From Candidatus Thermoflexus tengchongensis (GTDB taxonomy: Bacteria > Chloroflexota > Anaerolineae > Thermoflexales > Thermoflexaceae), in NCBI GenBank assembly GCA_016842085.1, contig JAEVEX010000015.1, forward strand, positions 1 through 64,000: a stretch of 64,000 bases of DNA, in the 5' to 3' direction. Positions 35,164-41,435 of the stretch are shown here, piece after piece. The position numbers and the translations under genes were made by a program. How positions within the stretch are numbered: position 1 is the first letter of the stretch; each line of letters begins with the position of its first letter. The notes beneath the pieces are model-generated. The model was not told the DNA's origin. It saw only the letters and a list, made by a program, of their open reading frames with translations, and searched no databases.

Positions 35164-36807
35164 CTAAAAATACCGGGCCGACAGGATGCCCGGCGGCAGC
35201 GGCTGGGTGCGGACGTTCAGGCAGGCCGGTCGCCCCGCCGCGGCCATCCGGGCCAGGGCAGGCCGGATGTCCTCCGGGCGCTCCACCAGCTCCCCGTACC
35301 CCCCGAATGCTTCGACGATCCGATCATAACGGGTAGGGGCCAGGGCGGTCGCCACAGCGCGAGCTTCCCCCACCATTTCGATCTGGGGCCGACGGATCTG
35401 GCTCCAGGCCGCATCATTGGCCACCACGCTCATGATGGGAAGGCGAAAGCGTACCGCCGTATCGAACTCAAAACCGTTAAACCCGAAGGCCCCATCCCCG
35501 AAGAGCACCAGGACCCGCCGATCCGGATACGCCAGCTGCGCCGCGATCGCGAACGGAACCCCGATCCCCAGACATCCAAAGGGCCCGGGATCCATCCAGT
35601 TCTCCGGCTGATAAACGGGGAGGATACGGGAAGCGGCCGCTACGATATCTCCCCCGTCGCCGATGACGATGGTCCGATCGTCTATGAAATGGGCCAGCTC
35701 ATGGCACAACCGCAGCGGATGGATGGGGATATCCGCGGCGTCCTTCCCCTGGGCCCAGAAGGCCGCCTCGGTTTCCTCGATCTCCCGCAGCGCCTCCCGC
35801 CACGCCGTCCACCGCCGGCCCGGATGGCGGGCCTGCATCGCCTGCCGCCACTCCTCCAGGATGATCCCGATATCCCCCACCAGCCCCAGGTCCACCGGCC
35901 GGTTGTGCCCGATCACCGTGGGCTCCAGATCCACGTGGATGATCCGCGCCGTTGAGGCGATCTCCTGCCCGAATTTCAGCCGGAAATCAAACTCCCCACC
36001 GACCAGGATGAGGAGGTCCGTCTGAGCGAAAGCCTTGCGCCGGGCGTGCTGGAAGAACTGCGGCGAATCCGGCGGCAGGGTTCCCCGGGCCATTCCATTT
36101 GTAAACAGAGGAAGATCCAGCTCCTCCACAAACCGGGCGAGGGCTCCATAGGCATTGCACCAGCGGATGGCACTTCCCGCCATCACCACCGGCCGTTCGG
36201 CTTCGGAGAGCATGGCCGCCGCGTGCTCCAGCGCCGGCTTCGCCGGGCCGGGCCGCGGGACATTTCGTTCGAAGCGCGGAAAAGCCACATGGCGCTCATC
36301 GACAAACCGGAAGAGGACATCCAGGGGGATCTCCAGGAAGACGGGGCCGGGGCGGCCGCTTAGCGCATGGCGGAGGGCGACCTCGATGAACTCCGGGATC
36401 CGCTCGGTCTCATAGACGGCCCCGGCCCACTTGGTGATCGGCCGCATGACCGCCACATGATCCATCTCCTGCAGAGAGCCCCGGCCGAGCTGGGCGAAGG
36501 GCCCCTGGCCGCCGATGACCAGCACCGGGCTGCTGGCCCGGAAGGCGTTGGCCACCCCGGTGACGCTGTCGGTGACCCCGGGGCCGGCGGTCACCACCGC
36601 CACCCCAGGCCGGCCGGTCAGGCGAGCCCATGCATCGGCAGCGTGAACGGCAGCCTGCTCATGGCGGACATCGATGATGCGGATCCCTTCATCGAGGCAC
36701 CCGTCGTAGATGGGCAAGATGTGGCCGCCACACAGGGTGAAAACCACCTCCACCCCTGCGGCCTTCAGGGCCTTTGCGACCAGCCGCCCTCCGTGCACGC
36801 TCGACAT
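35164..36807 (-). CDS. Thiamine pyrophosphate-dependent enzyme, acetolactate synthase-like
   Basis: A 547-residue ThDP enzyme with the usual three domains. Cofactor-activating Glu lies in [18 protein letters not shown], the PP domain shows [15 protein letters not shown] followed by ANDAAW, and the central domain contains a Rossmann-like fold. The sequence resembles acetolactate synthase large subunits and 2-hydroxyacyl-CoA lyases ([10 protein letters not shown]). No small regulatory subunit gene is adjacent, so the specific reaction is uncertain. A possible -10 (TAAAAT, 36863-36858) lies about 55 bases upstream. ATG 36807 follows AGGAGGGAAGG. Confidence 0.85.
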
Positions 36808-37118
36808 CTCCTTCCCTCCTCTCAGGATCCGGATCGATGCGTGATCTGCACAGCCTCATTTTAACGCAACCGGGGATCTGCCTCGAAGGAGAAATCGCGA
36901 AAACCATCCGGCTTTGTCTCCCGGCGATCAGAGAGGAGCACGGCCAGCGACCCGATCATGAGGGGAGAGAAGCCAGATATCCTCAGGAGTTGCGCAGCCG
37001 GCCTCTTCCGGGGGCCATCCCGCCTTCCTGATATCGGAGCCCAACCGGGTAAGTTGTAATGCTCCAGACTCCAGCGCCAGGCCGGCCTCAAAAGCTCCCA
37101 TGGAGAACCGCTAACGAT
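36808..37118. other. Intergenic region between the TPP enzyme and the metal transporter operon
   Basis: The region separates divergent genes. Apart from the TPP-enzyme -10 at 36858-36863 and the metal-operon promoter starting at 37119, nothing firm was seen. Confidence 0.4.
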
Positions 37119-37147
37119 TTGACATCGTTTTTAGGCTTGGCTAAATT
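37119..37147 (+). promoter_or_regulatory. Promoter of the metal ABC transporter operon
   Basis: TTGACA (37119-37124), 17-base spacer, TAAATT (37142-37147). The spacer and -10 are covered by a palindrome, which points to repression. Confidence 0.8.
37130..37145. promoter_or_regulatory. DtxR/MntR-like operator
   Basis: TTTAGGCTTGGCTAAA is an imperfect dyad (TTTAG.C and G.CTAAA), close to DtxR/MntR-type sites. It overlaps the spacer and -10 of the promoter, so a metal-loaded repressor bound here would shut the operon. Confidence 0.65.
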
Positions 37148-37200
37148 TATGAGAGGATAAACCCAACCTGCTCGTAAGGCTATCCTTTGAGGAGATGCCC

Positions 37201-38160
37201 GTGCGCGATCGGACCCGGTGGGGATGGGGATGGCGGATCCTGCTGATCGCTGCCGCCCTGTGGGGGCTGAGCTCCTGCGCGCCCACGGAGCGGCGGGCTC
37301 AGGCGGCCGAGCTGGCGAACCGCCGCATCCGGGTGACCGCCACGACCACCCTGGTGGCGGACCTGGTCCGCCAGATCGGTGGCGATCGGGTGGAAGTGAC
37401 CTCCCTGATGGGGCCGGGCGTGGATCCCCATCTTTATAAAGCCCGGGAGAGCGATGTCTGGAAACTGATGCGGGCGGACCTCATCGTCTATCACGGCCTG
37501 CATCTGGAGGCTCGCATGGCCGATGTGCTGGCCGGCATGGCCCGCTGGGTCCCGGTGGTGGCGGTGGGCGAGGCGATCCCCCCCGAACAACTTCGTTATC
37601 CCCCCGGGGAGAAGATCCCGGACCCCCACATCTGGTTCGACGTCCGTCTCTGGAAACGGGCGGCGGAGCCGGTGGCTCAGGCGCTGAGCCGTCTGGATCC
37701 GACCCACGCCCCCCTGTATCAGGCCCGTCTTCTCGCCTACCAGCAGGAGCTGGATGCGCTGGATGCCTGGATCCGGAGGGAGGTGCAGCGAATCCCTTCG
37801 GAACAGCGGGTGCTGGTAACTTCCCATGACGCCTTTGGATACTTCGGCCAGGCTTACGGGTTCGAGGTCAGGGGTCTGCTGGGGATCAGCACGGCCTCGG
37901 AGGCCGGGCTGGCGGATGTGCAGGCCCTGGCGGATTTCCTGGCCCAACGGCGAATCCGGGCGATCTTCGTGGAGACCAGCGTTCCCACCCGATACCTGGA
38001 GGCCGTGCAGGAGGCCACGCGCGCCCGGGGGTGGAGGGTGCGCGTCAGCGGCCCGCTCTTCTCCGATGCCCTGGGCGAACCGGACTCTCCGGAAGGCACC
38101 TACACCGGCATGATCCGTTACAACGTCCGAACGATCGTTCAGGCCCTGCAGGGAGAGTAG
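37201..38160 (+). CDS. Metal-binding lipoprotein of an ABC importer (TroA/ZnuA family)
   Basis: A 319-residue exported substrate-binding protein with lipobox LSSC (Cys26). Candidate metal ligands: His in GVDPHLY, His in DPHIWFDV, His in SHDAFGYFG and Asp in LFSDALG. This His-His-His-Asp set is the TroA type, seen in Zn/Mn importers. GTG 37201 has GAGGAG 6 bases upstream; an ATG at 37195 is too close to that site. It is the first gene of the metal operon. Zinc or manganese is likely; the sequence cannot decide. Confidence 0.9.
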   Translation: MRDRTRWGWGWRILLIAAALWGLSSCAPTERRAQAAELANRRIRVTATTTLVADLVRQIGGDRVEVTSLMGPGVDPHLYKARESDVWKLMRADLIVYHGLHLEARMADVLAGMARWVPVVAVGEAIPPEQLRYPPGEKIPDPHIWFDVRLWKRAAEPVAQALSRLDPTHAPLYQARLLAYQQELDALDAWIRREVQRIPSEQRVLVTSHDAFGYFGQAYGFEVRGLLGISTASEAGLADVQALADFLAQRRIRAIFVETSVPTRYLEAVQEATRARGWRVRVSGPLFSDALGEPDSPEGTYTGMIRYNVRTIVQALQGE

Positions 38161-38163
38161 AGG

Positions 38164-38937
38164 ATGGCTACCTTTCTGTCTGCCCGCCACGAACCCCCAG
38201 CGCCCGGCGATGGACCGGTGATCAAGGTGACGGACCTGACTGTGATGTATGGGGACCGTCCGGTGCTCTGGGATGTGGACTGGGAAGTCCCCGCCGGGGT
38301 GTTGATGGCCGTCGTGGGCCCCAACGGGGCCGGGAAGACCACCATGCTCCGGACGATCCTGGGCCTGGTCCGACCCGTTGCGGGCTCGATCACGGTTTTC
38401 GGACGCCCGCCGGCGGAGGCCCGACGGTGGATCGCTTACGTTCCCCAGCGGACCGCCGTGGATTGGGATTTCCCGGCCACGGTGCTGGATGTGGTGCTGA
38501 TGGGGCGCTATAGCCATCTGGGCTGGGTGCGTCGTCCGGGGGCCCAGGATCGGGAGCGAGCACTGGAGGCCCTCGCCCAGGTGGGGATGGTCCACCTGGC
38601 CCATCGCCAGATCGGACAGCTCTCCGTGGGCCAGCAGCAACGGGTCTTTGTGGCCCGGGCTCTGGCTCAGGACGCGTGGCTTTACCTGATGGATGAACCC
38701 TTTGCGGGAGTGGATGCGACCACGGAGCAGGCCCTGATCGAGGTGCTTCGGGGCCTGAAGGCTGCGGGGCGCACCGTGATCGTCGTGCATCACGATCTCC
38801 AGACCGTCCCCCTCTACTTCGACTGGGTGACCCTTCTGAATGTGCGCTGCGTGGCATGGGGGCCGGTGACGACCGTATTCACCGCCGATTATCTCCGTCA
38901 GACCTACGGGGAGCGAGCCGGCATCCTCTCCGGATAG
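38164..38937 (+). CDS. Metal ABC transporter ATP-binding protein (TroB/ZnuC family)
   Basis: A 257-residue ATPase. Walker [10 protein letters not shown] at about 52-60, signature [16 protein letters not shown], Walker [12 protein letters not shown] and switch His in VVHHDLQTV. The Q-loop region reads [20 protein letters not shown], typical of Mn/Zn importers (WDFP motif). It starts 3 bases after the stop of the binding protein, so translational coupling is likely. Confidence 0.94.
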
Positions 38938-39070
38938 GGCTTTACGCTGCCGGGTTCGAATGGAGGGACGGGATGGCCTCTTCCCCCGGGAAGAGCCATC
39001 GGCGTAACTCCGAGCCTGTTCGGGACATGGGTCAGGCGGCTGATCTTTCTCAGCATGGAGATCCCACCCG

Positions 39071-39961
39071 ATGGGGTTCGTTTTCCTGATGGATCCAACT
39101 TTCCGTCTGGTTGCAACCGGCTCCGCCCTGATCGGAGCGGTCGGGGGGGTCCTGGGGACCTTCGCGCTGCTCCGCCGCCAGAGCTTGCTGGGGGATGCCA
39201 TGAGCCATGCGGCGTTACCCGGGATCGTCCTGGCTTTCCTGCTGACGGGGAGCCGGGATCTTCCCCTCCTGCTGGTCGGGGCCTCCCTCAGCGCGTGGCT
39301 GGGGGCGCTCCTCGTGGTTCTGATCACCCACCGTTCCCGGATCCGGCCGGATGCCGCCCTGGGCCTGGTGCTCTCGGTCTTTTTCGGGATCGGGATGGCG
39401 CTCCTGACCGTGGCCCAGCGGCGGCCCACGGCGGCGCAGGCCGGTCTGGAGCGTTTCCTGTTCGGGCAGGCGGCCCTGATGCTTCCGCAGGATGTCGAGT
39501 GGATCGCGCGGACGGCGGCCCTGATCTTTCTCCTGATCTTCCTGTTCTGGAAGGAATTCAAGGTCCTGGCCTTCGATCCGGCCTTCGCCGCTGCGATGGG
39601 CCTTCCGGTGATGGCGCTGGATATCCTGCTCACGACGCTGACCGTTCTCGCGATCGCCCTGGGGCTCCAGGCGGTGGGGGTGGTGCTGACGAGCGCGGTG
39701 CTGGTCGCCCCGGCCGCCGCCGCCCGCCAATGGACGAACCGGCTGGAACGGATGGTGGTCCTGGCCGGAGGGTTCGGAGCCCTGGCGGGGGTTCTGGGAA
39801 CCCTCCTGAGCACCTGGATCGGCCGGCTTCCGACCGGCCCGGTGATCGCCCTGTGCGCATCGGGGATCGCCCTGTTTTCCCTTTTGTTCGCACCGCGCCG
39901 TGGACTGGCATGGACCGTGAAATCTCCCGGAGGGAAGCGTCGTGCTGGCCCCTCAGGTTGA
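39071..39961 (+). CDS. Metal ABC transporter permease (TroC/ZnuB family)
   Basis: A 296-residue permease with about eight or nine helices. The family stretch GVLGTFALLRRQSLLGDAMS followed by HAALPG is present, as is FKEFKVLAFDPAFAAAMG-like sequence (FWKEFKVLAFDPAFA). ATG 39071 follows GGAG at about 10 bases; an in-frame ATG at 39089 is possible. A 133-base gap separates it from the ATPase. Its end overlaps the start of a second permease by 20 bases, implying coupled translation. Confidence 0.92.
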   Translation: MGFVFLMDPTFRLVATGSALIGAVGGVLGTFALLRRQSLLGDAMSHAALPGIVLAFLLTGSRDLPLLLVGASLSAWLGALLVVLITHRSRIRPDAALGLVLSVFFGIGMALLTVAQRRPTAAQAGLERFLFGQAALMLPQDVEWIARTAALIFLLIFLFWKEFKVLAFDPAFAAAMGLPVMALDILLTTLTVLAIALGLQAVGVVLTSAVLVAPAAAARQWTNRLERMVVLAGGFGALAGVLGTLLSTWIGRLPTGPVIALCASGIALFSLLFAPRRGLAWTVKSPGGKRRAGPSG

Positions 39962-41081
39962 GATCATGCTGGTCGCCGCCCTGGCGGGGGCGGCGTGCGC
40001 GCTGCCCGGCGTCTTCCTGTTCCTGCGGCGGATGTCCCTGGTCGGGGATGCCATCAGCCATGCCATCCTGTTCGGGATCGTGGCCGCTTTCCTGATCGTC
40101 CGGGATCTCCGCTCCCCCTGGCTGATGATCGGCGCGGCCGGGACCGGGGTGCTCACCGCGGTGGCGGTGGATGCTTTGCGCCGGACGGGCCGGGTGAAAG
40201 AGGACGCGGCCCTGGGGCTGGTGTTCCCCGCCCTGTTCAGCCTGGGCGTGGTGGGGATCGCCCGGGGGGTGGGCAACATCCACCTGGATCTCGACGCCGT
40301 GCTTCTGGGGGAACTGGCGTTTGCGCCCTTCGATCGTCTGACCTGGGGTGGATGGGACCTGGGGCCTCGGGGAGCCTGGGTTATGGGTGGGTTACTGCTC
40401 CTGAATCTGGTTCTGATCCTCGCTTTCTACAAAGAATTCATGCTCTCGGCGTTCGATCCCGACCTGGCAACGATTTTCGGCTTTCAGCCGGCGGTGTTAC
40501 ATAACGTGTTGATGGGGATGACCGCCCTGACGGTGGTCGCCGCCTTCGACGTGGTCGGCGTGGTGCTGGTGGTGGCGATGCTGGTGGTTCCTGCTGCAAC
40601 CGCCGCCCTTCTCACCGATCGTCTGGCCCCTATGCTGGGGCTATCGGTCCTCCTGGGCCTCCTCATGGCTCTGGGCGGTTACGGCCTGGCCTACGCCCTG
40701 GATCTCTCCATCGCGGGCTCCATGGCCACCGTTGGCGGAATCCTGTTTGCCCTCGCCTTCCTGGGGGCGCCCGCCCATGGGCTCATTGCCCAGGCTCGCC
40801 AAGCCGCGCGGCAGCGGGAACGGCTGGCCCAGCAGATGCTGGTCATCCACCTGCTGAGCCATGAGGGGACCGAAGCGGAGCGGGAGGAGAATTGCATTCG
40901 GACGCTGCCGGCGCATCTGCGCTGGGATCCCGCTTTCGCGGAGCGGGTGATCGTTCGGGCAGAACGAGCGGGATGGGTAGTGCGGGAGGGCGATCTGCTC
41001 CGGGTGACCGAAGCCGGGCGTCAGGCGGCGCAGGAGATCCTGGGCGCGAATGGTGGAGCGCCCTCCCACCCTCCATCATAG
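39942..41081 (+). CDS. Metal ABC transporter permease fused to a C-terminal winged-helix domain
   Basis: A 379-residue protein. Residues about 1-285 are a second Mn/Zn-type permease (RRMSLVGDAISHAILFG and FYKEFMLSAFDPDLAT). From about 290 the sequence leaves the membrane and forms a winged helix: QQMLVIHLLSHEG, then RAERAGWVVREGDLLRVTEA, the pattern of DtxR/MntR-type wings. The metal-binding second domain of DtxR is absent. In Chlamydia a homologous permease is fused to the repressor YtgR. GTG 39942 follows GGAGGG by 7 bases. It might sense metal or bind the operator at 37130-37145. Confidence 0.85.
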   Translation: MLAPQVEIMLVAALAGAACALPGVFLFLRRMSLVGDAISHAILFGIVAAFLIVRDLRSPWLMIGAAGTGVLTAVAVDALRRTGRVKEDAALGLVFPALFSLGVVGIARGVGNIHLDLDAVLLGELAFAPFDRLTWGGWDLGPRGAWVMGGLLLLNLVLILAFYKEFMLSAFDPDLATIFGFQPAVLHNVLMGMTALTVVAAFDVVGVVLVVAMLVVPAATAALLTDRLAPMLGLSVLLGLLMALGGYGLAYALDLSIAGSMATVGGILFALAFLGAPAHGLIAQARQAARQRERLAQQMLVIHLLSHEGTEAEREENCIRTLPAHLRWDPAFAERVIVRAERAGWVVREGDLLRVTEAGRQAAQEILGANGGAPSHPPS

Positions 41082-41201
41082 CGGAACCGGGCGACCCCAA
41101 CCGCTCCCGTCCGAGGCCGTTTCATCCTTCGCGGGCTTGCATGCCCTTGCTCCGAAAAATAGCGAAGATAGGCGGAAGAGCAAGCCATCATGGGGGCCTC
41201 C

Positions 41202-41413
41202 TTTTGGAGTGCGGCGGCTCGACGCTTTTGGAGTGCGGCGGCTCGACGCCGCTCTGGTATGAAAGCGGCACCCAGGCGCCGCACCCCCAAATAGGCGGCG
41301 GCTCGACGCCGCTCTGGTATGAAAGCGGCACCCAGGTGCCGCACTCCCAAATGGGCGGCGGCTCGACGCCGCTCTGACGAAAGCGGCACCAAGGTGCCGC
41401 ACCCCCAAATAGG
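41202..41413. repeat. Tandem repeat, 60-base period
   Basis: Units beginning at about 41241, 41301 and 41361 repeat at exactly 60 bases, with two partial copies before them. Each holds palindromes of the GGCGGCTCGACGCCGC type and GGCACCCAGGTGCC type. There are no unique spacers, so it is not CRISPR. It lies between the metal operon and hppA. Confidence 0.85.
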
Positions 41414-41435
41414 CGTCCCTCCCATCCTGTTCCCC

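Follow-up and report, generated by a model that had tools for sequence, protein, structure and literature searches.

A winged-helix tail of probable DtxR descent on a metal importer permease of Thermoflexus, and a promoter dyad that probably serves another protein

Mn and Zn ABC importers are normally discussed as being under the control of separate repressors. The DNA analysed here, a stretch of 64,000 nucleotides from the hot-spring Chloroflexota bacterium Candidatus Thermoflexus tengchongensis (the window; close relatives of this genome include Ca. Thermoflexus japonica), raises the question of whether such a transporter could instead regulate itself. It contains a four-gene metal ABC importer operon (37195-41081) whose last permease ends in a predicted winged helix and whose promoter is covered by a DtxR-like dyad. 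From these features the original prediction had proposed a transporter that controls its own genes, as a variant of the fusion of Chlamydia trachomatis, in which YtgR still has the residues that coordinate metal in DtxR and acts as a repressor once cleavage has released it (PMC5599777, PMC7755916). Our results suggest that the tail and the operator dyad are probably not partners. We give about even chances to the reading that a standalone DtxR represses the operon and that the tail is a repurposed winged helix, possibly a metal-responsive brake.

The nature of the operon was confirmed by Pfam matches, which identified the binding protein, the ATPase and the two ABC-3 permeases (Table 1). The ATPase also matched the NCBIfam MntA-like model (4.2e-68, below that model's cut-off). 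In permease B the PF00950 match covers residues 8-274 of 379, a full-length ABC-3 membrane domain, which the protein exceeds by about 100 residues. Its membrane part has the same fold as PsaC in PsaBC of Streptococcus pneumoniae (Foldseek against 7kyp, 2.6e-13); residues 19-270 of the PsaC chain, which has 290 residues in 7kyp, are matched by the permease part, and no room is left there for a winged-helix tail. Note that another contig of this genome carries a separate znu-like operon with a Fur/Zur-like gene (named from the sequence by eye). For this reason the window operon is more likely a Mn2+/Fe2+-type importer. Just 3' of the operon lies a 60-bp tandem repeat (41235-41415; 3 copies, 92% matches).

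Table 1. Features of the importer operon and its promoter (positions in the window).
Feature	Position	Strand	Basis
Sigma-70-like operon promoter, TTGACA-17-TAAATT	37119..37147	+	Promoter search; block kept in seven loci
DtxR/MntR-type operator dyad (predicted)	37130..37145	+	Motif; cross-species conservation
ZnuA-family metal-binding lipoprotein of the importer	37195..38160	+	PF01297 1.9e-81
ABC transporter ATPase, MntA/ZnuC-like	38164..38937	+	PF00005 2.6e-28
ABC-3 permease A, without tail in Thermoflexus	39071..39961	+	PF00950 7.2e-69
ABC-3 permease B, 379 aa, C-terminal winged-helix tail	39942..41081	+	PF00950 9.5e-46
Winged-helix tail of permease B, residues 281-369	40782..41048	+	AlphaFold2; 33-sequence alignment; profile

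The operon promoter is the single sigma-70-like promoter in 36700-41400 (0.4 expected), with its -35 element at 37119-37124, a 17-nt spacer and its -10 element at 37142-37147. The dyad TTTAGGCTTGGCTAAA, which the original prediction had correctly placed over the promoter, sits between the two elements and overlaps it; its half-site TTAGG is that of the operators of DtxR, IdeR and MntR. Four other Thermoflexus loci and two sister species keep it as a block, with diverging flanks, and TTGAC together with the promoter-operator block is common to the seven loci. Moreover, dyads with at least 10 of 12 matches were found upstream of 20 of the 34 related operons, where shuffles expect 0.38. In a strict search of the window genome itself, dyad counts were not above those of the reversed-pattern control, and the significance of the dyad therefore rests on its conservation across species. 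A match to TTTAGG in a paper on Treponema TroR was discarded, being part of a primer only; no Chloroflexi MntR operator was described in the limited library searched.

Which protein would use this site? In five related loci (L066, L067, L068, L069 and L073) the dyad precedes a standalone dtxR gene, and in two others (L075 and L081) a dyad with a spacer of 5 stands before the standalone dtxR and another dyad before the binding-protein gene. The dyad also precedes a dtxR gene that is unlinked to the operon (genome G166). Four loci of family f21 conserve the tail, but no such dyad was found in them, and a search of this family for an alternative shared dyad found none; the recognition helix of the f21 standalone DtxR differs. 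The dyad is also absent upstream of the operon in L065, L076, L079 and L080. The window genome has a second copy, kept in a sister species between two other genes (G000:C20:163633, in L091:1501, and G208:C1:3096985, in L098:1501); it is flanked by genes for a Lys/Ala-rich protein and a multi-span membrane protein, an arrangement conserved in the genus. Because the genus has kept this second dyad away from the operon, the dyad is probably used by a factor acting in trans. Thus, the site is distributed as one would expect of an operator used by a diffusible DtxR (at dtxR promoters, not found in f21, present in a second copy), and the promoter looks like a DtxR/MntR-regulated one in that its dyad overlaps it and is common to the dtxR genes of relatives. 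As a counterpoint, the dyad occurs beyond the loci with a nearby dtxR: a Myxococcota locus with full fused DtxR tails (L007) has a very similar one, and no dtxR was seen beside that operon. The fused domain there may bind such sites; the same genome also encodes standalone DtxR-like genes.

Standalone repressors are available. The window genome encodes two full-length DtxR proteins (DtxR1 on C20 and DtxR2 on C45), and at least one was present in each of the 53 other tail-bearing genomes checked (54 of 54 with the window genome); in 9 of 28 loci a dtxR gene lies near the operon. In the tree DtxR1 falls in a broad clade with the operon-linked DtxRs, the exact branching being unsettled, and DtxR2 in a group of its own. 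The gene of DtxR1 (C20:138631) is not linked to the operon, and its own promoter lacks the dyad. Of the two, DtxR1 is most likely the operon repressor, and we infer with good support that a standalone DtxR represses the operon. When metal is plentiful such a protein, likeliest DtxR1, would bind the dyad between -35 and -10 and block RNA polymerase. Some Chloroflexota also encode membrane-anchored DtxR proteins, with one N-terminal hydrophobic helix followed by a complete DtxR and further domains (L066:1968-2987 and L099:423-1490, both on the minus strand). The first lies directly 3' of a tail-bearing permease, and the second has a dyad, TTTAGGAATGCCTAAA, in its promoter region.

The structural model that the original prediction had called for agrees with it on the fold: with 33 relatives, AlphaFold2 predicted the tail to be a winged helix at high confidence (pLDDT ~97 over the core). 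The full-length model shows the last membrane helix (257-275) leading, almost without a linker, into a long helix (281-307); short helices come next, and the domain is completed by the recognition helix (330-342), a wing of two strands and a final helix. A helix runs without interruption from the membrane part into the tail and leaves no flexible linker between them, which in this model argues against proteolytic release of a repressor. The metal-binding and dimer domain of DtxR is indeed missing, as had been noticed: there is no PF02742 match, and the protein ends after the winged helix.

The tail resembles DtxR/MntR only weakly. Its top Foldseek matches were mostly DtxR, IdeR and MntR, although weak (E 0.012 and up), and VIA-align placed E. 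coli MntR first (Z 11.6, rmsd 4.7 over 94 residues), tied with MarR-type regulators. By sequence, the tail alone matched nothing significantly in Pfam (no match above cut-off), NCBIfam or the PDB; a PDB profile search gave IdeR at E 0.65, not significant alone. A HemN_C match (0.003) was set aside as a weak generic winged-helix match below its cut-off. Profile comparisons went further. With hhalign the tail profile matched standalone DtxR at 1.2e-5 and the DtxR domains fused to Myxococcota permeases at 1.3e-7, and the permease-B tail matched the permease-A tails of other Chloroflexota at 3.6e-7. The Myxococcota domains are clearly DtxR (PF02742 1.8e-26, hhalign 5.8e-24). Their permeases (L006 and L007) are 53-54% identical to the window protein in the permease part and carry a complete DtxR domain at the position of the tail, with the winged helix in the same place; they keep Fe_dep_repr_C (PF02742) after it, whereas the window tail ends there. 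In these two loci both permeases of one operon have complete DtxR domains, a double YtgCR-like arrangement. The best reading of these comparisons is that the tail descends from a DtxR-type winged helix, mainly because of its position and of these intermediates, and not because of strong direct similarity.

The tail is widespread. Besides the window genome, 53 genomes match over permease and tail (301 Chloroflexota genomes, counted by eye), and with the tail profile alone 97 of 399 Chloroflexota genomes gave a match; the fusion variant is present in about a quarter of those sampled. Strong matches to the profile lie in frames of permease length, except for two partial ones in short frames. Winged-helix-like tails with two invariant His were also seen on permease A, in L061, L063, L066, L067, L069, L071, L073, L080, L082 and L086. 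The dN/dS of the tail (0.14-0.23, compared with 0.10-0.12 for the permease part) indicates purifying selection.

Over the 33 aligned tail sequences (alignment numbering from residue 282), L300, H303, H307, E316, W328, L353 and G359 are invariant, and 32 of the 33 have His or Glu at position 325. The recognition helix starts with a nearly invariant Phe; its DNA-facing positions vary, with entropies of 2-3 bits. P39 and Q43 are DNA-contact positions in IdeR/DtxR, and titles of PDB entries include variants of both. The standalone DtxRs conserve the DNA-facing positions better, mostly as [PA]-[AST]-V-T-x-M, and in the tail no conserved recognition-helix contacts of the DtxR/MntR type were found. 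Since the His and Glu residues are invariant while the DNA face varies, the alignment suggests that the tail works through its helix-1/helix-2 side, where a metal site may lie, rather than through the side facing DNA. H303, H307 and E316 fit a putative metal site, different from that of DtxR, and are compatible with a substrate-binding cytosolic regulatory domain of a transinhibited importer; the cluster could instead be structural.

How, then, might the tail work? That it binds the operator, cleaved or tethered, and represses the operon in a metal-dependent manner is improbable. The winged-helix fold, for which DtxR is one of the best structural matches, the DtxR-type dyad at the promoter and the YtgCR precedent (PMC7755916, PMC5599777) all speak for it, and tethered DNA binding is not absurd, because membrane-anchored DtxR proteins exist in relatives. 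However, the dimer domain and the DtxR metal domain are absent, the DNA-facing residues variable and the model without a linker; every genome checked has a standalone DtxR, and the dyad stands before dtxR genes and was not found in f21 despite the conserved tail. Self-control by the tail, the central claim of the original prediction, is thus not borne out: the fold it foresaw is predicted, but separate DtxRs exist and most likely control the site. Its kinship to YtgCR-type fusions stands, both being ABC-3-type metal permeases from a similar operon that end in a winged helix probably derived from DtxR; unlike YtgCR, the window permease has lost the metal/dimer domain, shows no linker in its model and shares its genome with standalone DtxRs. 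Very improbable is a role independent of DNA, in which the tail would bind or release a standalone DtxR at the membrane through a winged-helix contact and so couple transport to repression. The probable common ancestry of the two winged helices and the dtxR neighbours of the operon would suit such a role, but the tail lacks the DtxR dimer surface, and its contact with DtxR is putative. Least of all do we expect a functionless, decaying remnant of a DtxR fusion: the resemblance to DtxR is partial and the second domain lost, yet residues are invariant across diverse sequences and the dN/dS is low.

The likeliest job of the tail is that of a metal-responsive brake, and a purely structural role comes next. 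The latter, in which the tail packs on the ATPase or stabilises the permease pair without sensing metal and the operator belongs to a standalone DtxR, is somewhat unlikely in our judgement. It would explain why the tail is almost confined to the permease, why Trp/Phe and a hydrophobic core are conserved in it, and why its helix runs on from the membrane part without a break; two invariant His and an invariant Glu around a turn, together with the His/Glu swap at 325, would be unusual for it. As for the metal-responsive brake, an ancestral permease would have gained a DtxR-type DNA-binding domain by fusion, and this domain would then have lost its metal/dimer domain and its DNA-contact residues, and with them probably DNA binding. 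The tail would persist as an extension of the last membrane helix, fixed in place in the cytosol and selected for a job on the transporter. Surplus cytosolic metal would bind the His303-x3-His307...Glu316 cluster, and the metal-bound tail may then shift against the ATPase or the partner permease. Such transinhibition is known from MetNI and ModBC, where the cycle is halted by an additional cytosolic domain that detects the imported substrate (PMC10710835). The likeness is one of proposed working principle only: the domain of MetNI and ModBC is on the ATPase and has other folds, whereas in the window operon a winged helix on the permease would have that role. A metal-sensing brake in the permease that does not bind DNA and uses a new His-x3-His...Glu site, with a similar tail on both permeases in some Chloroflexota, is for us a tentative proposal.

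Permease-DtxR fusions are already known. What we did not find described is a fusion that keeps the winged helix alone, has an invariant His/Glu set of its own and occurs across the Chloroflexota; the limited library searched contained no description of a winged helix on a Chloroflexota permease. The Myxococcota fusions with full DtxR, the Chloroflexota permeases with the winged helix only and the membrane-anchored DtxR of some Chloroflexota form a contrast series. If our reading is correct, a repressor-derived domain in the permease would mean that about a quarter of the sampled Chloroflexota exert control at the level of the protein, and the tail would be a case in which the domain of a transcription factor was reused once another protein carried the control of the genes.
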